DNA of 64,000 nt from Taibaiella koreensis (GTDB lineage Bacteria; Bacteroidota; Bacteroidia; Chitinophagales; Chitinophagaceae). Positions 50,775 through 60,221 of the stretch are shown piece after piece. The notes under the pieces are model-generated. The model ran no database searches. It was given only the letters and a program-made list of their open reading frames with translations, and was not told the DNA's origin. A program made the position numbers and the translations under genes. Numbering within the stretch: the stretch's first letter is position 1; every line of letters starts with the position of its first letter. The stretch lies in contig NZ_QVNU01000003.1 in assembly GCF_003545715.1 (NCBI RefSeq), positions 1 through 64,000 on the forward strand. Direction: 5' to 3'.

Positions 50775-50884
50775 GCTTGCTACCGGCATCAGATCATTTT
50801 GGCAAGCAGCTTGTGGTCCCTTGCGCAAAAGAACCCGGATCTCGCGCCAGGCCTATAATTTGGCGGTATCTAAACGCGAATTTT

Positions 50885-51649
50885 ATGAAAAAGAGAAAAT
50901 TGTACCTTGCTCTGGCAGCCGTTCTGGCTTCCTTTAACGGGTTTGCACACAAGGATTGCGACCTGGCTGTATCGATGACCCCATCGGCGGGCTATTCCAC
51001 CACCGTAAATTATGGTGACTCTTGTTTTTTCGATCTCAAGATCACCAATAACGGGCCCGATGTGCTCACTATTACCGATAGTCTCTTCCTCGGTATGGTG
51101 GGTACTTCATCCATTTCCCTCATCATTCCCCCGGGGCCGATCCCCAACGGCGGCTCTTTTACGCTGGTCAAAAAAACCTATGCCGCGCACGACATCGATA
51201 CGCTGCGGGCTGCCGACAAAGTTGTTGGCGCCTGTTTCGTGCTGCTGAAGCAATCAGACATCCTTGTCGGCAATCCGCCCAGGCCGGTTACGGAAACGTA
51301 CGAAGATACAAGGGCAGCCAATGATACCGCCTGTTTCAGGGTTACCCTCAAAAAGCGTCCGGCAAATGGTATAGCCGGCCCGGGCCTTGCCACGGAGTCC
51401 TTACAGCTATACCCCAATCCGGCGCGGGATGAAGTGCGTTTTGATCTGAAACCCGACAATACCGCACCCGTACTGGTGTCCGTCAAAGATATTACCGGAA
51501 GGGAAGTTCGGCGGCAGGATTTCGGAGTACTGCGCAACGCTGCGACCAATGTCGCACTAGATGTAAGAGGACTTAAGCCAGGTCTGTACTTTGTTGAATG
51601 GTGCAACGGTAACCGTAGGGCCACAGGCAAGCTTGTGATCGGACATTAA
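50885..51649 (+). CDS. T9SS cargo protein, type A sorting domain (paralogue 1)
   Basis: 254 residues from the ATG at 50885 (signal peptide MKKRKLYLALAAVLASFNGFA). A CARDB-like/DUF11-like beta domain (DLAVSMTPSAGYSTTVNYGD) is followed by a type A C-terminal domain beginning LQLYPNPARDEVRFDL and ending TGKLVIGH. The product should be secreted through the type IX system. It shares its architecture with the next two genes; a motif ctataatttggcgg upstream recurs before the second copy. Function unknown. Confidence 0.8.
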   Translation: MKKRKLYLALAAVLASFNGFAHKDCDLAVSMTPSAGYSTTVNYGDSCFFDLKITNNGPDVLTITDSLFLGMVGTSSISLIIPPGPIPNGGSFTLVKKTYAAHDIDTLRAADKVVGACFVLLKQSDILVGNPPRPVTETYEDTRAANDTACFRVTLKKRPANGIAGPGLATESLQLYPNPARDEVRFDLKPDNTAPVLVSVKDITGREVRRQDFGVLRNAATNVALDVRGLKPGLYFVEWCNGNRRATGKLVIGH

Positions 51650-51790
51650 ATACGGTACCAGCTTTTTTGTTTTAGAGGAATGGCTGTTTGCGTGTGATTT
51701 CTTGCTGAAAATCAAAAAGGCAGGCATCAGGATTGGAATACATAGAACTTTGTCTATAATTTAGCGGGTAAATCTTTAAAAGCAATATTG

Positions 51791-52561
51791 ATGAAAAAAA
51801 TTAAACTCTTTTTGGTGGCTGCAGGCTTGCTCTGTACAGCAACCGGCTTTGCCCAAAAGCAGTGCAACCTGGGGATCACGGTTACGGCTTCAGCAGGATA
51901 TTCAACAACACTTAACTACAAGGATACCTGCTTTTTCGATGTGAAGATCCAGAATAATGGCACCGCAGCACTGGCTACCACCGATACAATCGTAGTGGGC
52001 CTTTTGGGTACCACAACGCTGATACCTTTGGTACCTGCCGGCGCCATTGCCAGCGGTCAATCGTTTACTGCCACGAAATCGTTCCGGGTAATACATACCA
52101 TCGATACCCTGAAAGCTGCTGATCTTACCGGCACTGTCTGCGCCGTTTTGCGTAAGCAGGCAGATATTACCGTTGGCACTCCGCCCCGGCCGCTCACTGT
52201 TACGTATACCGACAACGTAGCCACCAACGATACGTCATGCAATACCATAACATTGAAGAAACGCCCGAACAATGGCATCTTCGAATGGGGTAGCGGCAGC
52301 AACGAGGCCCTGGCCTTATACCCCAACCCCGCCAGCGGCGAAGTGAAGTTTGACATCAAAGCCGATAAGGCAGAGAACGTGGTATTGTCTGTGAAAGATA
52401 TCACCGGTCGTGAAGTAGCCCGCAAAGATTACGGAAAGCTTCCCGTAGGCGTTAATACTACTTTGCGTCTCGACGTTAGCCATCTGAACGCCGGTCTTTA
52501 CCTTGTCGAGTGGAACAGCGGCGACCGCCGCGCCACGGGCAAGCTGACCATCAGTCGCTAA
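51791..52561 (+). CDS. T9SS cargo protein, type A sorting domain (paralogue 2)
   Basis: 256 residues from the ATG at 51791 (signal peptide ending TATGFAQ). Closely similar to paralogue 1 through the beta domain (AGYSTTLNYKDTCFFDVKI) and the sorting domain (ALYPNPASGEVKFDIKAD, ending TGKLTISR), indicating a recent duplication. A strong terminator follows. Confidence 0.8.
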   Translation: MKKIKLFLVAAGLLCTATGFAQKQCNLGITVTASAGYSTTLNYKDTCFFDVKIQNNGTAALATTDTIVVGLLGTTTLIPLVPAGAIASGQSFTATKSFRVIHTIDTLKAADLTGTVCAVLRKQADITVGTPPRPLTVTYTDNVATNDTSCNTITLKKRPNNGIFEWGSGSNEALALYPNPASGEVKFDIKADKAENVVLSVKDITGREVARKDYGKLPVGVNTTLRLDVSHLNAGLYLVEWNSGDRRATGKLTISR

Positions 52562-52581
52562 GACGGTAAGATTTAACATTA

Positions 52582-52617
52582 AAAGCATTGATACTACCGT
52601 ATATCAATGCTTTTTTG
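52582..52617 (+). terminator. Terminator of T9SS paralogue 2
   Basis: A perfect 13-bp stem AAAAGCATTGATA (52582-52594) with TATCAATGCTTTT (52603-52615), then two more T. Confidence 0.9.
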
Positions 52618-52648
52618 TTTAATTTGCAACGAAACTATATAATTAATT

Positions 52649-53386
52649 ATGAAGTCCGGAAATTTACTCTGTACCGCTTTGCTGCTGCTTGCCGGCGCCG
52701 GCAGCGTACAGGCGCAGCCAAAGAAATGCGATATGAGTATTACGCTCATGACGCCGGCCGAAGGAGCGGTGATCAATGCGTATGCCACATTCAACATTAC
52801 CGTAAAGATAGATAACATAGGACCCGACGACCTAGCCGCAGGCGATACCGTTTGGTACAATACGCCATCGATGCCCTATGCGCAACTGAAGCCTTTCCTG
52901 CTGCAGCAGGCCATCCTCTCGGGGGGCAGCGCTACCTTGATCCTGGCCACGAGCACCAATGTAACGAACAATCCCGGCGATGTTACCGAGCCCTATTGCG
53001 TACGGGTAGTCAGCAACCCCAGCAATACCGGCACTTTTATTGATACGACAGTAACCAATAATAATTCCAGTTGTAATAATGTAACGTTTAAAGCGCTTCC
53101 TGCCAGCGGTATTAATGAGGCGGATGCTGCGAAAACGCGTCTGACGCTGTATCCCAATCCTGCCCGCAATACGGTACAAATTGCATGGGCCGGTACTGCG
53201 GCTGACCGCCCGGTGATAAGCCTGTCCGACCTTTCGGGCCGGCAGCTTGCGGTAAAAGGCACAGGCCAGGCACTCTCCGGCAAAGAGAAGCTGTCGCTGG
53301 ATATTTCGGCGCTGCAGCCGGGTATGTACCTGGTGACGATCTATAACGGCGGTCTTCGCGCCGCGGGCCGTTTCATCAAGCAATAA
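52649..53386 (+). CDS. T9SS cargo protein, type A sorting domain (paralogue 3)
   Basis: 245 residues, the most diverged of the three: signal peptide (MKSGNLLCTALLLLAGAGSV, then QAQ), beta domain (CDMSITLMTPAEGAVINAYA, TFNITVKIDNIGPDDL) and type A sorting domain (TLYPNPARNTVQIAWAG, ending RFIKQ). Its own terminator (below) makes it a separate unit. Confidence 0.8.
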   Translation: MKSGNLLCTALLLLAGAGSVQAQPKKCDMSITLMTPAEGAVINAYATFNITVKIDNIGPDDLAAGDTVWYNTPSMPYAQLKPFLLQQAILSGGSATLILATSTNVTNNPGDVTEPYCVRVVSNPSNTGTFIDTTVTNNNSSCNNVTFKALPASGINEADAAKTRLTLYPNPARNTVQIAWAGTAADRPVISLSDLSGRQLAVKGTGQALSGKEKLSLDISALQPGMYLVTIYNGGLRAAGRFIKQ

Positions 53387-53456: not shown

Positions 53457-55088
53457 ATGAAAGGACCCAAAGCAGTTCTGTTGTTTCCTGCACTCCTGGC
53501 TTTCCTGCTGCTTTCCTGCGGCGGGCGGAAGACCGGTGAGAAAATGATCTTCCGCTATAACCAGATCAGCGGAATGGAAACCCTCGACCCTGCATTTGCC
53601 AAAAGCCTTGCTATCATATGGGGCACCCATTTTATCTACAATACCCTGCTGGAAGTGGACAGCAACCTGCATACAGTACCATCGCTGGCGGCGCGCTGGG
53701 AAGTGAGCCCCGACGGCCTCGACTATAGCTTCCATTTGCGCCGCGACGTTTATTTTCACGACAATGAGGCTTTTCCCGGGGGGCGCGGTCGCCGGATGAC
53801 GGCTGCCGACGTTGTCTATAGCTTCGACCGTCTTATTGATCCGGCTACGGCATCGGCCGGCGCCTGGATATTCAACGACCGTGTGCGGGAACACCGGCCT
53901 TTTGAGGCGCCCGACGACAGCACCTTACTCATCCATCTCAAAACACCGTTCCGGCCCTTGCCCCAGATCCTTACCATGCAATATTGCTCGGTAATAGCCC
54001 CGGAGGTCGTGCACAAGTGGGGCAAGGACTTCCGTAACCATCCCTGTGGTACCGGCCCTTTTCAGTTCCGCTACTGGGACGAAGGCAATATGCTGGTGCT
54101 GCACCGCAACCCGCATTACTGGGAGCATGATGAGGCGGGTGTACAGCTCCCTTACCTGGATGCCGTACAGGTCTCGTTCAACGATACCCGGGCTATGGAG
54201 TTCCTGCTCTTCAACCAGAAGAAGATCGATTTTATTAATGGTATCGACGGTTCGATGAAGGATATGGTGCTCACACGGAAAGGGACCTTGCGACCCGAAT
54301 TTGCAGGTCGTATCCGGCTGGAAAAGCAGCCCTACCTGTATACCGAATACCTGGCATTCGTGATCGACACCACCAATCCCGTAGTGAAGAACAACCCTGT
54401 GAAGCTGAAAAAGATAAGGCAGGCGATCAACTATGCGATAGACCGGGAAAAGATCGTGACCTATTTCCGCAATGGCGTAGGCGTACCCGCTACCAGGGGC
54501 TTCATACCCCTGGCCATGCCTGGCCTCGAAAGTGCATCGTTTGAGGGTTACCATTACGATCCGGAACGGGCCCTGGCGCTGCTGCGGGAAGCCGGCTTTC
54601 CCAATGGGGAAGGGCTGCCGGCCATCACCCTTACAGTTCCCGATGTATATGTGGACATTTGTAACTTTGTAGCCAGCCAGCTTGGCGAAGTAGGGATACG
54701 CACCCAGGTACAGGTGATGTTGATGGGCTTGCTGCGGCAAATGATGACCCGCTCTCAGCTACCCTTTTTCAAGGCCGGTTGGGTAGCCGATTATCCCGAT
54801 GCGGAAACCTTCCTGGCCTGCTTTTACGGTGGTTTCCCGGCCCCGCCCAATTATACCCGTTATCAGAACCAGACTTTTGACCGCTGGTACCGGGAGAGCC
54901 TGCAGGCAGCCAGCGATACGCAACGCTATGCCCTGTATGCCCGCATGGACAGCCTGGTTGCCAGCGAGGCGCCGGTAGTACCTTTATATTATGATGAGAT
55001 GCTTCATTTCACCCAGAACAATGTGACCGGCTTAAAAAGCAATGCGCTGAACATTATAGACCTGCGCAGGGTGAAAAAAACAAACTAA
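53457..55088 (+). CDS. Oligopeptide/dipeptide-binding lipoprotein of an ABC transporter
   Basis: 543 residues from the ATG at 53457. Lipobox LLLSC with lipidated Cys21. SBP_bac_5 blocks follow: the N-terminal ETLDPAFAKSLAIIWGTHFI, ADVVYSFDRL, CGTGPFQFRYWDEGNMLVL-HRNPHYW, and KIRQAINYAIDREKIVTYF with a late VPLYYDEM. It captures peptides or similar solutes outside the inner membrane. No permease is adjacent; the fused ATPase at 1.4-3.0 kb could belong to the same system, but the 50-kb distance is unusual. Confidence 0.88.
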   Translation: MKGPKAVLLFPALLAFLLLSCGGRKTGEKMIFRYNQISGMETLDPAFAKSLAIIWGTHFIYNTLLEVDSNLHTVPSLAARWEVSPDGLDYSFHLRRDVYFHDNEAFPGGRGRRMTAADVVYSFDRLIDPATASAGAWIFNDRVREHRPFEAPDDSTLLIHLKTPFRPLPQILTMQYCSVIAPEVVHKWGKDFRNHPCGTGPFQFRYWDEGNMLVLHRNPHYWEHDEAGVQLPYLDAVQVSFNDTRAMEFLLFNQKKIDFINGIDGSMKDMVLTRKGTLRPEFAGRIRLEKQPYLYTEYLAFVIDTTNPVVKNNPVKLKKIRQAINYAIDREKIVTYFRNGVGVPATRGFIPLAMPGLESASFEGYHYDPERALALLREAGFPNGEGLPAITLTVPDVYVDICNFVASQLGEVGIRTQVQVMLMGLLRQMMTRSQLPFFKAGWVADYPDAETFLACFYGGFPAPPNYTRYQNQTFDRWYRESLQAASDTQRYALYARMDSLVASEAPVVPLYYDEMLHFTQNNVTGLKSNALNIIDLRRVKKTN

Positions 55089-55099
55089 ACGATTTGAAT

Positions 55100-55636: not shown

Positions 55637-55713
55637 GGCGAGATAGCTCAGATGGTTAGAGCGCAGGATTCATAACCCTGAGGTGACGGGTTCAACTCCC
55701 GTTCTCGCTACCA
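55637..55713 (+). tRNA. tRNA-Met (CAT)
   Basis: 77 bases including an encoded CCA. Acceptor GGCGAGA pairs with TCTCGCT (one G-T pair), D arm GCTCAGATGGTTAGAGC, anticodon CAT at 55671-55673 in loop TTCATAA, variable AGGTG region, T arm GGGTTCAACTCCC. An elongator methionine tRNA is most likely; an isoleucine tRNA with modified CAT is not excluded. A mismatch A-C closes the anticodon loop. Confidence 0.95.
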
Positions 55714-55859: not shown

Positions 55860-56132
55860 ATGGAAGTTATTGTTTTAGAGGAAGAAGCTTTTTACGAACT
55901 TTATAACAGGCTTGTAGCCGATATAAAAAAGCAACTTGGGGTCAAGTCGCGTGATAAATGGATTGATGACGAGGAAGCCATGTCCATGCTGAAAATCAAA
56001 TCCAAAACCACGCTGCAAAAATTCCGTAATGAGGGCAAAATCCGCTACAGCGAAGTCGGCCCCCGGCTGTTCCTGTATGATAGCGATAGCATCGACGCTT
56101 ATATTGAGAAAAACGCTAAAAACCCGTTCTAA
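55860..56132 (+). CDS. Helix-turn-helix (excisionase/MerR-like HTH_17) protein
   Basis: 90 residues. The segment WIDDEEAMSMLKIKSKTTLQ, then KFRNEGKIRYSEVGPRLFLYDSDSI, is the winged-helix of HTH_17 excisionase-type proteins found in Bacteroidetes mobile elements. It may control excision or transcription of the island. The stop TAA overlaps the ATG of the next gene (taatg), suggesting translational coupling. Confidence 0.85.
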   Translation: MEVIVLEEEAFYELYNRLVADIKKQLGVKSRDKWIDDEEAMSMLKIKSKTTLQKFRNEGKIRYSEVGPRLFLYDSDSIDAYIEKNAKNPF

Positions 56133-56371
56133 TGGAAGAAGAAAAAACAGTCGATCCGATATTCAAGAAAGGGTTTGAACATGGCTATTGGCTGCGGCGC
56201 GGCAATAGCCCGGAGTTGAATGATCTAATACAGAGAGCCGCCAATCACAAAGGTTATTATACCGGGCTGAAAGCGGGCAGCAAAGAGGCAGAGCGTGAAA
56301 TGTTCCTGGACAAGCTACAAAAACAGAAAGCCGATAAAGAACAAAAACCGAAAGGGCCTAAGCGACATTAA
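56132..56371 (+). CDS. Small protein coupled to the HTH gene
   Basis: 79 residues, charged, mostly helical, Lys/Glu-rich tail. It begins in the stop codon of the HTH gene. Proteins of this size occur next to HTH_17 genes in Bacteroidetes elements; the role is unknown. The 99 bases after it contain no recognised element. Confidence 0.65.
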   Translation: MEEEKTVDPIFKKGFEHGYWLRRGNSPELNDLIQRAANHKGYYTGLKAGSKEAEREMFLDKLQKQKADKEQKPKGPKRH

Positions 56372-56470: not shown

Positions 56471-57010
56471 ATGAAGAGTAATACGACGAACAACAAAGTT
56501 TTCATATCCTATTCCTGGGATAATGATGCGCATAAGCAGTGGGTTTTAGATTTGGCGAATCTGCTTATTAAAAATGGGATTGATGTTATACTTGATAGAT
56601 ATGAATTAAGCGCTGGCAAGAGTTTACAGCACTTTATAGAAAATGCTGTAAGTGAGTCTAACAGAATAATAATAGTTTATACGCCTAACTACAAATTGAA
56701 AGCTGACAAGAGGGAAGGAGGCGTTGGTTATGAGTACTCAATTATCAACATTGGTCTCTATAAGGATATTACTGGTCAAGGTAAAATAATACCTATTTTG
56801 AGGCAAGGCAGTATAGCAAGTAGTATACCTGAATTTATGCAACAGTTCATCCATATCGATTTTTCAAACGACAGAAAATTTTCAGAGAACTATGAAGAAT
56901 TATTAAGGGAGATTTATAAAGAACCTAAAATTAAAAAGCCGCAAATAGGAGAAAAGCCGAATTTTGAATCCAATTTTGTTGGAGTAAAAAAAAACGATTT
57001 GAACGATTAG
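56471..57010 (+). CDS. SEFIR-domain protein, N-terminal part of a frameshifted SEFIR-TM-FGE protein
   Basis: 179 residues. VFISYSWD (10-17), then WVLDLANLLIKNGIDVILDR, YELSAGKSLQHFIENAVSES and the hydrophobic RIIIVYTPNYK fit a SEFIR (TIR-like) domain, with GGVGYE after it as a possible catalytic/structural block. TIR-like domains signal or cleave NAD in immunity. The frame ends soon after a nine-A run (56986-56994). Adding one A at that run joins it directly to the downstream frame through a membrane segment, giving a protein of about 494 residues. Either programmed slippage, or a true or technical frameshift. Confidence 0.8.
   Translation: MKSNTTNNKVFISYSWDNDAHKQWVLDLANLLIKNGIDVILDRYELSAGKSLQHFIENAVSESNRIIIVYTPNYKLKADKREGGVGYEYSIINIGLYKDITGQGKIIPILRQGSIASSIPEFMQQFIHIDFSNDRKFSENYEELLREIYKEPKIKKPQIGEKPNFESNFVGVKKNDLND
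56986..56994 (+). other. Nine-A run: probable frameshift/slippage site
   Basis: Reading GTA AAA AAA AAC leads to a stop five codons on; inserting one A restores a frame that runs through ERLASRKKWNFKEYRSIIYV and LIIIIVLVPLYFI (membrane segment) into the FGE-like domain without a stop. A run of nine A is long enough for polymerase slippage. Confidence 0.65.
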
Positions 57011-57081
57011 CGAGTAGGAAAAAATGGAATTTCAAAGAATATAGATCGATTATCTATGTACTGATAATAATTATAGTTTTA

Positions 57082-57954
57082 GTGCCTCTGTATTTTATCA
57101 GTAAGGATTATATCTTTAACTTTTTTATTTTAAAGGAAAAGAAGGAATTAAAGAAACCTCATTTTTCTTCTATAAAAATCACCAATGATTCCGCTAAGCA
57201 GCAACCAAATTCGCTGTCGAAAGGTTATGATGATTCTATTCTAGGAATAAATTACCTGTCTAATACGGCATTCTTAAGCAACATATTCTCTGCAAAACCA
57301 AATCAGGAAAATAAAAAATCTAAGGACGCTCAATATTGGCAACTCTCTCAAGATTTCACAGACTCGATTATAGACTATAAAATGGTTTTTTTACGGGATA
57401 CGTTTTCCTTTCATAAAAATCATCTAAAAGAGTTTTATATTGGTCAAACTGAAGTGACACAAAAGCAATGGGAAAGAATAATGGGCGATAACCCATCCCA
57501 CTTTAGCAATTGCGATGACTGTCCAGTTGAAAACGTAAATTATAACGACATTCAGCTATTTCTTAAAGAATTAAACAGAAGAACAAATAAAAATTATCGT
57601 TTACCTACTGCTGATGAATGGCAATTTGCCGCATTGGGAAAGGTTAAAAGTGAGGTCAGGCCATTTCTTTTATTCGGCGCGAAAAAGCTTAGCGAGATCG
57701 CGTGGTGGGGAGCTAATAGTAAAAATAAAACACATCCTGTTGCAACCAAAGCTGCAAATAACTACAAACTATATGATATGTTTGGAAATGTAGAGGAATG
57801 GTCGGCTTCAAAAACGGATGGGTGGAAGGGTCATTACATGATTTTTGGTAGTAGCTATTATTGGTGGGACGAATATCATTATGATATTGATCCTTGTAAT
57901 AACGCAAAAGTTAATTCAAAAGATGAAATGACTGGTTTCAGAATAGCCCTTTAA
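57082..57954 (+). CDS. Formylglycine-generating-enzyme/SUMF1-like domain, C-terminal part of frameshifted protein
   Basis: 290 residues counted from a GTG inside a membrane segment, which is not a sensible start. The domain (from about residue 95) has the SUMF1 pattern: EFYIGQTEVTQKQWERIMGD, NPSHF, CPVENVNYND, YRLPTADEWQFAALGK, NNYKLYDMFGNVEEWSAS and final TGFRIAL. FGE-like domains either oxidise Cys to formylglycine or serve as C-type-lectin-fold binding modules. The conserved catalytic Cys pair is not evident, so binding or signalling is more likely. Joined to the SEFIR part it would place a receptor-like module outside and SEFIR inside. Confidence 0.75.
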   Translation: MPLYFISKDYIFNFFILKEKKELKKPHFSSIKITNDSAKQQPNSLSKGYDDSILGINYLSNTAFLSNIFSAKPNQENKKSKDAQYWQLSQDFTDSIIDYKMVFLRDTFSFHKNHLKEFYIGQTEVTQKQWERIMGDNPSHFSNCDDCPVENVNYNDIQLFLKELNRRTNKNYRLPTADEWQFAALGKVKSEVRPFLLFGAKKLSEIAWWGANSKNKTHPVATKAANNYKLYDMFGNVEEWSASKTDGWKGHYMIFGSSYYWWDEYHYDIDPCNNAKVNSKDEMTGFRIAL

Positions 57955-57977: not shown

Positions 57978-58784
57978 TCAATTTTCATCACTCAAAAAAT
58001 CCACGATATCATAGGCAACTTGATTTGGAGAGATAATGGTAGAAGCCTCAAGACCATATCGTCCGCTTTCATCTTGGATTATGCCCTTTGTTACTAATCG
58101 AGTGAGATGCAAGTGTAATTCCCATGATTTTAGGTCATAGGTTGACGGATTGTAAGCTGCTTTCAAAGGCTCTATTCGTTCTTCTGCCTTTTTAAGCCTG
58201 TCTTCCTCTTGTTCTATCAATCTTTGAAGCTGCTGATCTTCAGGTGTATTAATCCAACTATCTTCAACATCGTAAATTTCGCTTTGCCGTTCTCTCTTTC
58301 GGCTATTTAGCATTTCAAGCTCACGCTTAATTTGATGGATGTCAGAATAGTAATCTGCATATTCACCACCTTCTTCGACTATTCTCTGCAATATCACGAG
58401 TTCATAGTCTGACAATCCAGCTATCAGTTCGGCTAATACTTCTGCATAGTCAAAATTCTTAGGTTTGACTATTTGTGAAGCTAAAAGGCGCTTGAGAGCG
58501 TCAATTCTTTTTTGTGCATTAATCTTAACGACCCTTAAAACGACACTTTCAAAAAAATCACCGACTTGTTCTTCCTCAATCTGCTCGATTGCTAACGGAA
58601 CTTGAAAATGAGAATTCATGTAATCAGACAGCGCATCGATAAATTTATCATATCGGGCGCGTTTTACGCTGCCCCTTACATCAAATATCAACTGATTAAG
58701 CAAGCCCCCGGCTACGGGAACTGCGCCTATTGCAGCTTTAAGAATTCCCTTGCCTAACTGTTTCATTTCTTCTTGATCGCTCAT
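57978..58784 (-). CDS. Possible defence-associated protein with N-terminal hydrophobic segment
   Basis: 268 residues. The N-terminus GKGILKAAIGAVPVAGGLLN, then QLIFDVRGSVKRARYDKF, recalls the membrane-associating starts of several toxin-like and conflict-system proteins. The centre is a long charged coiled coil (about 145-205), and the end (HLHLTRLVTKGIIQDESGRY) looks like a winged helix. It converges with the SEFIR/FGE gene 23 bases away. Not recognised as a family; the defence role is inferred from position. Confidence 0.5.
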   Translation of the reverse strand: MSDQEEMKQLGKGILKAAIGAVPVAGGLLNQLIFDVRGSVKRARYDKFIDALSDYMNSHFQVPLAIEQIEEEQVGDFFESVVLRVVKINAQKRIDALKRLLASQIVKPKNFDYAEVLAELIAGLSDYELVILQRIVEEGGEYADYYSDIHQIKRELEMLNSRKRERQSEIYDVEDSWINTPEDQQLQRLIEQEEDRLKKAEERIEPLKAAYNPSTYDLKSWELHLHLTRLVTKGIIQDESGRYGLEASTIISPNQVAYDIVDFLSDEN

Positions 58785-58893: not shown

Positions 58894-59094
58894 TTAAACA
58901 GTGACGACCCGGCACTGGTCAATATAATCAGCCAATCGCTGCATCATTTCCTTTCTTTCATCTAGGAACAAAGCCCGGTCATAAGCCCGGTCAACATCAT
59001 TTGCGGGAACATGCGCAAGCTGGCGATCCGGCACCTCATGCCGATAGCCTAACTTCTCTTTTGCAATCCCCATGCCCAAAGCCTGGCTGCTGAT
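58894..59094 (-). pseudogene. C-terminal remnant of a P4-type tyrosine integrase
   Basis: About 65 residues in frame, ending at 58894. LGYRHEVPDRQLAH, then NDVDRAYDRALFLDERKEMM and QRLADYID match the end of P4-like integrases (QLAH, AYxRAxxLxERRxMMQxWADYLD). The catalytic core upstream is missing and a stop lies just before, so the gene is dead. Such integrases usually insert into tRNA 3' ends, which fits the tRNA-Met 3.2 kb away. Confidence 0.75.
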
Positions 59095-59198: not shown

Positions 59199-60221
59199 AT
59201 GAAAGTGGATTTCCTCATCGTGGGCCAGGGCGTGGCCGGGACCTTGCTCAGCTACCAGCTGTTGAAAGCCCGGCGCTCTCTGCTGGTGCTCGATGAGGGC
59301 TTTGGCGGAAAAGCCAGCCGTGTTGCCGGCGCCGTGATGAATCCGCTCAGCGGCAAACAATGGAAACCGGCGCCTGGCGCTGATCTCTTTCTGCCCGAGG
59401 CATTGGCGACTTATCGCGAATTGGAACAACTTCTGCGGCGCTCCCTGGTACAGGCCATGCCGCTTTATCTTTTCCAGGAGTCCGGAGCGGCAGTCTTACC
59501 GCAGCTGCAACCTGTATCGCCACAGCTGCTCGATACCTTTTTCCATATTCCCGGCCGGCTCGATCGCCTGCCCGATACCTGGCTGGTCGATGCTGCCGCC
59601 CTGCTTGACGGCTGGACAGACTATTTGCAGGAAAAAGGCGCTTTCCGCAGGGAGCGGTTTGATGCCGCGCAATGCATGGTGCTTCCCGACCGGGTGCATT
59701 ACCGCGATATTGAAGCGGGCACCATCATTTTTTGCGAAGGCGCGGCGGCAAGGGATAACCCGCTGCTACAAGGACTGCCTTTTACCACCAACAGGGGAGA
59801 AGCGTTGCTGCTTGATATTCCCGGATTGCCTTCTGATGCACTTTATCACAAGGGGCTGCGCCTCGCACCCCGTAGCGACGGGCTGTTCTGGTGCGGCAGC
59901 AATTATACCTGGGAATTGAAGGGCATGAGGCCCGATAAGGACTGGCGCGGCAATACATTGGCCGCGCTGGGGGAATGGCTGAAGCTGCCCTTTCGCCTGG
60001 AAGATCATATCGTGGCCGAGCGGCCCACTACGGCGGGCCAGGTTCCTTTGCTGGGACTTCATCCCCGCTACCCGGCAGTGGCCCTGTTCAATGGCCTGGG
60101 CACACGGGGCTTCTCGGCCGGACCTTTCTGGGCCACACAACTGGCACACCAGCTGCTGGACCCCGGGTATAAGATACCGGCGCTGGCAGGCTATGCCCGC
60201 CTGGACAAATGGCTTCGCTGA
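59199..60221 (+). CDS. FAD-dependent oxidoreductase (DAO family)
   Basis: 340 residues. FAD-binding GQGVAGTLLSYQLL (9-22) at the N-terminus, then GKASRVAGAVMNPLSGKQW, and near the C-terminus LFNGLGTRGFSAGPFWATQL. The layout is that of small D-amino-acid-oxidase-like (DAO, MnmC2-like) flavoproteins. Substrate unknown. It is the first intact gene after the island and converges with the next gene, with 3 bases between the stops. Confidence 0.85.
   Translation: MKVDFLIVGQGVAGTLLSYQLLKARRSLLVLDEGFGGKASRVAGAVMNPLSGKQWKPAPGADLFLPEALATYRELEQLLRRSLVQAMPLYLFQESGAAVLPQLQPVSPQLLDTFFHIPGRLDRLPDTWLVDAAALLDGWTDYLQEKGAFRRERFDAAQCMVLPDRVHYRDIEAGTIIFCEGAAARDNPLLQGLPFTTNRGEALLLDIPGLPSDALYHKGLRLAPRSDGLFWCGSNYTWELKGMRPDKDWRGNTLAALGEWLKLPFRLEDHIVAERPTTAGQVPLLGLHPRYPAVALFNGLGTRGFSAGPFWATQLAHQLLDPGYKIPALAGYARLDKWLR

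Follow-up and report, generated by a model that had tools for sequence, protein, structure and literature searches.

The locus at 56471 to 57954 on the forward strand of the window, the whole 64,000-nucleotide stretch of Taibaiella koreensis DNA that was analysed, is probably what remains, or a switched-off state, of a gene encoding a bSEFIR-type receptor that crosses the membrane once. As read from the sequence, its parts descend from a single gene with a SEFIR domain, a membrane helix and a domain of formylglycine-generating enzyme (FGE) fold in that order, broken in the record by a change of frame at a run of nine A. bSEFIR protects against phage, and this kinship, together with the placing of the locus in an island beside a tRNA-Met gene, makes a role as an anti-phage sensor plausible.

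Two reading frames and a run of nine A

The locus is made up of the following parts:

56471 to 57010, forward strand: open reading frame of 179 residues with a SEFIR (TIR-like) domain (Pfam, PADLOC bSEFIR, PDB 5y8e)
56968 to 57007, forward strand: stretch of 40 nt in which the SEFIR frame and the second frame are both open
56986 to 56994, forward strand: run of nine A inside the 40-nt overlap, read as GTA AAA AAA AAC in the SEFIR frame
57046 to 57102, forward strand: predicted membrane helix in the second frame (hydropathy 2.76), with its basic flank on the SEFIR side
57103 to 57381, forward strand: linker from the helix to the outer domain (second-frame residues 60-125 at pLDDT below 50)
57382 to 57954, forward strand: shortened FGE-like domain of C-type-lectin fold (PF03781, E 4.2e-21; Foldseek; alignments)

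The second frame, which is shifted back by one relative to the SEFIR frame and holds the helix and the FGE-like domain, is open from 56968 to a stop at 57952-57954, and the Pfam domain calls for the two frames are SEFIR/TIR_2 and FGE-sulfatase. The position of the nine-A run is unusual, while the run itself is not. Shuffles of the 1484-bp stretch gave about 0.27 runs of at least nine A per stretch and 1.94 nine-A runs are expected by chance in the 64-kb window, whereas the chance of such a run falling in the 40-nt overlap is about 0.7% by our own arithmetic from the shuffles. In the host genome (5.94 Mb in 24 contigs, 99.65% complete) all 53 exact nine-base runs of A or T were checked and eight lie within gene bodies, seven of them spanned by an open frame (L113, L119, L229, L232, L235, L240 and L241) and the window's run being the only one to separate two long frames; the gene-body cut-offs required at least 60 codons on either side of the run where the frame is open and 100 where it is broken, which would miss breaks between shorter pieces, and an open frame is not the same as a proven gene. 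The frame break is a local one in the sequence record. A 17-nt near-repeat (88%) pairs 55082-55098 with 56987-57003, overlapping the greater part of the A run and what comes after it; short two-copy repeats of about 17 nt are often chance.

Evidence for a single gene

That both frames stem from one SEFIR-membrane-FGE gene is well supported. The earlier note had proposed a single protein of this kind on the ground that the FGE-like frame has no plausible start before its membrane segment, and this is borne out, with no ATG, GTG or TTG in the second frame ahead of the segment and the first GTG (57082) falling within it. The first ATG of the frame (57382) corresponds in the alignment to the Met of MVxVxGG, the motif with which FGE-like domains open, and therefore reads as an internal residue, and a separate FGE gene read from an internal start was rejected on the same ground. 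The second frame stays open over 327 codons in DNA of 33.6% GC and would therefore be coding now or have been so until recently.

The single protein also finds support among relatives, as SEFIR and helix share one frame elsewhere and both SEFIR-FGE and caspase-FGE fusions exist. In L080, from the same genus, and L076, from the same family, SEFIR, helix and WG repeats all lie in one unbroken frame, and because these two carry a helix nearby, the helix in the second frame of the window is what its SEFIR lineage predicts. The search for homologues with SEFIR fused to FGE was answered in part. One locus (L030, 520-1734) encodes both in a single frame of 405 residues (Pfam, SEFIR 1.6e-8 and FGE 5.6e-48), but it belongs to another family of the same order, sits on a distant tree branch, has no membrane helix and is the only carrier of FGE among the 58 SEFIR loci tested. 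The full SEFIR-helix-FGE order was found unbroken nowhere, and of the 16 among 394 genomes of the window's own family that match the SEFIR query, the other 15 are without FGE. Homologues encoded as two separate genes, the case that would have spoken for two genes, were not seen either; the nearest single SEFIR, L075, merely has neither helix nor FGE after its SEFIR. Viral contigs searched with either half alone returned nothing. As separate observations, one viral contig (L127:793-2646) encodes caspase-FGE in one frame, and another (L195:22-1074) has FGE together with a TIR_2 match under the curated cut-off in one frame, a possible TIR-FGE protein.

The SEFIR domain and its relatives

The PADLOC bSEFIR model (PDLC03957) matches residues 5-166 of the SEFIR open reading frame at E 7e-72, and PDB 5y8e matches it at E 2.3e-26. 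Glu88, in the GVGYEYS motif, is invariant among seven aligned SEFIR proteins and may be a catalytic residue of the TIR-like NADase kind. An N-terminal SEFIR is common to bSEFIR and the window, but only positions 36-198 of the 412 in the bSEFIR model are matched, and the window adds a helix and an FGE domain and has a broken frame.

SEFIR searches covered 394 genomes of the window's own family, 298 of its order, 395 of its phylum, 295 of its class and 248 of a second family, these sets being overlapping samples of larger groups. Some of the 58 SEFIR loci are near-identical or overlapping, L052, L081, L088 and L203 being the same-place repeats that were dropped. In a tree of 50 SEFIR domains (L020, L052, L088, L203, L050, L085 and L074 had been removed beforehand, and rows of at most 110 residues were also left out) the window groups with L076 and L080 (96/87), and L075 adjoins them (99/98).

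The SEFIR part was located in 57 of the 58 loci, L028 thereby standing outside the helix count. With the aligned SEFIR end taken near query residue 150, a helix follows within 50 residues in only two of the 57, L076 and L080, at 34 and 18 residues respectively, against about 41 in the window, while 13 of the 57 frames stop within 40 residues past the SEFIR and so have no room for one. Helices had first been flagged in L040, L041, L051, L079 and L200 as well, and within 120 residues past the SEFIR only L051, L076 and L080 have one. L051, the next closest at 66 residues, carries several helices from that point and then a longer part that is NTPase-like by eye, and is possibly another membrane SEFIR type. 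Many different tails were found on bacterial SEFIR proteins. The host genome holds a second SEFIR protein (L001, G000:C20:145969-146325), which is unbroken, 480 residues long and has another tail.

L080 and L076 thus share with the window their SEFIR tree group and the order of a SEFIR, one helix at a like distance and then an outer domain. They differ from it in having WG repeats outside, an unbroken frame and, adjoining, a caspase gene and a four-gene DUF6175 cluster. At both places (L206:6268-12921 and L207:4356-10887) the SEFIR-helix-WG gene adjoins a caspase (C14) gene, a small protein and the four-gene cluster, which includes DUF6175 and is signal-peptide-like by eye; between the two genomes, the three pairs that were compared show identities of 50, 50 and 54%, and the neighbourhood has the look of a multi-gene system that is conserved. 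A DUF6175 cluster is found at L223 and L224 (short contigs) and L225 too, with no SEFIR among the listed open reading frames. DUF6175 is present in 14 of 152 genomes of the window's own family and was not found in the window's own genome.

The membrane helix and the outer domain

Hydropathy gives a single membrane helix, SIIYVLIIIIVLVPLYFIS, flanked by ten K/R among the preceding 20 residues and six among the following 20, and the AlphaFold2 model of the second frame has a long helix at residues 21-58. The model is confident at about residues 150-280, close to the PF03781 match (residues 146-281), and poor at 281-312. The best solved match in Foldseek is TvpA of Treponema denticola (2y3c, E 3.3e-11), followed by PvdO, CarF and FGE enzymes; the TM-score to TvpA is low, at 0.47 by the length of a query that includes helix and linker. 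TvpA is also the best solved match of the outer domain by sequence.

The outer domain has its fold in common with formylglycine-generating enzyme (6s07 and others), but where the enzyme has the cysteine pair of GGSFLCHESYC, which we take to be its catalytic pair, the window reads GSSYYWWDEY. Anchored by eye on GGS, the window has Tyr at both cysteine places; an alternative MAFFT alignment puts Cys309, in the low-confidence model region 281-312, in the column of the second cysteine, and the first cysteine is absent either way. At least one catalytic cysteine would therefore be gone, and probably both. Since the first is missing in either alignment, the FGE-like domain is most likely a binding domain. 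Extracts of two reports describe C-type-lectin/FGE domains that serve conflict systems as sensors or effectors (PMC10907252, PMC7159879).

A target of a diversity-generating retroelement was considered for the outer domain and rejected. The candidate rested on GSSYYWWDEYHYDID, which resembled a variable repeat, and on the match to TvpA, which is itself a target of such an element. Unlike the setting of TvpA, the genome of the window has no reverse transcriptase that could be found, with no RVT_1 match in a search that was positive in three of 14 control genomes. The window contains no template-like copy, and no second copy came up genome-wide in a DNA search with 40 of 67 candidates scored. 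Because no reverse transcriptase was found, diversification of the outer domain by a retroelement is unlikely.

An island beside tRNA-Met

The earlier note had placed the locus in an integrated element, which agrees with the surroundings:

55637 to 55713, forward strand: tRNA-Met (cat), conserved and bordering the island on its left (ARAGORN, Rfam)
55860 to 56132, forward strand: small HTH_17 protein, excisionase-like (PF12728, E 3.7e-7; PHROG excisionase/regulator, E 1.4e-4)
56132 to 56371, forward strand: open reading frame of 79 residues, with no family in NCBIfam or PHROGs
57978 to 58784, reverse strand: open reading frame of 268 residues in the same island, with no Pfam family and present in one of 147 genomes, its own
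58897 to 59094, reverse strand: fragment of 66 codons, possibly the end of an integrase (PHROGs of unknown function to E 5e-9; phrog_1 weak, at E 0.066)

The tRNA-Met gene occupies the corresponding place in each of the three genomes of the same genus (G001, G002 and G003) and the island is absent from all three. The gap at the site measures 3485 bp here; in G002 it is about 89 bp and in G003 about 755 bp, and G001 has about 6 kb of other open reading frames there. On its right the island is bounded by a gene at 59199 that looks, by eye, like an oxidoreductase, and GC is about 0.33 within the island against about 0.5 around it. The island shares no 11-mer with the tRNA, and no other attachment repeat was convincing. 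The open reading frame of 268 residues has no homologue in the 146 other genomes. Elsewhere in the window, at 50777-53386 on the forward strand, three adjacent open reading frames look alike, with similar C-terminal ends by eye.

Cause and use of the frame break

The break at the nine-A run is probably a lineage-specific change of length, and a phase-variable locus, in which run lengths would be mixed within one population, is among the possible readings of it. The break may be a real loss of function, the locus being a pseudogene in the making of which neither part works, and this account is a serious possibility while falling short of probable. It would suit the putative integrase fragment alongside, which weakly suggests an eroding island, and the state of two other SEFIR loci, L074 and L085, which are broken too, with two and three stops inside the SEFIR match. 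Against it, neither part has a second lesion over about 490 codons, and decay would therefore have to be very recent.

An error of sequencing or assembly, by which the true gene is one open frame and the recorded length of the run is wrong, is rather unlikely. Homopolymers are where such errors fall, both frames are otherwise clean and the relatives of the same layout are unbroken; however, an open frame spans seven of the eight gene-body nine-base runs in the same assembly (a small sample), and the genome is 99.65% complete in its 24 contigs.

The earlier note had suggested that slippage at the run sets the ratio of soluble SEFIR to full-length receptor. As an evolved switch, this would have RNA polymerase slipping at a set rate, or the ribosome doing so at A AAA AAC, with the ratio of SEFIR to receptor being what matters. 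According to extracts of published reports, nine-A runs slip efficiently in several bacteria (PMC1088944, PMC5009743) and such slippage is used in some genes (PMC1088944, PMC5009743, PMC4256274). The nearest parallel in these extracts is tssM of Citrobacter rodentium, which has the same shape, in that a poly-A run stands just before an early stop and the gene yields a short product as well as a long one that includes an outer part; frameshifting at its 11 A is about 20% and both the short and the full-length form are required (PMC4256274). The slippage of tssM was shown by experiment with 11 A, whereas slippage at the run in the window would be a prediction. The run also falls within the 40-nt overlap, and the heptamer A AAA AAC, a feature of programmed -1 ribosomal frameshifting, is in the right phase.

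The comparisons nonetheless go against a switch, which is decidedly improbable. Conservation of run length among homologues is the test of slippage proposed in an extract of one of these reports (PMC1088944), and a conserved run was looked for and is absent, with no run of at least six A at the junction in L076 or L080, which as the only two available relatives of the same layout, and with a differing outer domain, make this a weak test, nor in L030. No stimulatory RNA structure stood out downstream, the z scores being +1.31 (56995-57100) and -0.22 (56930-57060) in a test that has pseudoknots outside its range, and ribosomal frameshifting with such a structure was rejected on these scores. In one study, as far as its extract goes, RNA polymerase of E. 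coli needs longer runs of A than of T for slippage (PMC6260861). An extract of another report describes an amoeba TIR protein as toxic when without its membrane helix (PMC13142454). By analogy a free SEFIR without its sensor could be toxic, and the amoeba case argues against the locus giving much active SEFIR in free form. Provided that the gene is transcribed, full-length protein is likely to arise by accident as a minor product.

Decay, error and a switch agree with the preferred reading of a former receptor gene in all but how the break arose or what it is used for, and their odds therefore overlap and do not sum to one. Very improbable, finally, is a chance abutment of two unrelated genes, one for a short SEFIR effector and the other for an FGE membrane protein, as the second frame has no start ahead of its helix and the SEFIRs that group with the window are followed in the same frame by a helix at a similar distance, even though the parts lie in different frames as sequenced and the 13 short SEFIR frames elsewhere also end soon after the domain.

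The proposed receptor and its meaning

The topology, ligand, signalling step, defence role and any expression of the receptor that we infer for the former gene would be as follows. The SEFIR domain would lie inside the cell, one helix would cross the inner membrane and the domain of FGE fold would stand outside as the sensing part, binding a ligand that might be a phage or envelope signal. Binding would cluster the SEFIR domains, leading to depletion of NAD+ or to a toxic signal. With the sequenced copy broken at the nine A, the main product would be a soluble SEFIR without the sensor, and a minority of full-length protein may come from slippage by RNA polymerase.

Animal IL-17 receptors have a SEFIR inside, one membrane helix and a sensing domain outside. 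The window has this layout in common with them but in mirrored orientation, its SEFIR being N-terminal, and common descent of the whole layout has no support. Literature searches returned nothing under 'bSEFIR', nor on SEFIR joined with FGE-sulfatase or formylglycine, and the order of SEFIR, helix and outer domain does not appear in the titles and abstract openings on bacterial SEFIR among the matches listed. On a bolder and improbable view, the window and its relatives would be a small clade of SEFIR receptors that span the membrane and can exchange their outer domains (WG or FGE), mirroring IL-17 receptors, in which one member has a nine-A run as ratio control or on/off switch.

If a membrane SEFIR with an outer sensor is true, phage or damage would in some bacteria be sensed outside the inner membrane and killing carried out from inside, as animal receptors signal. 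Because sister proteins differ in having WG or FGE as the outer domain, ligand sensing would be directly testable, and the frame break would be a natural test of whether the length of an A run switches a defence gene.
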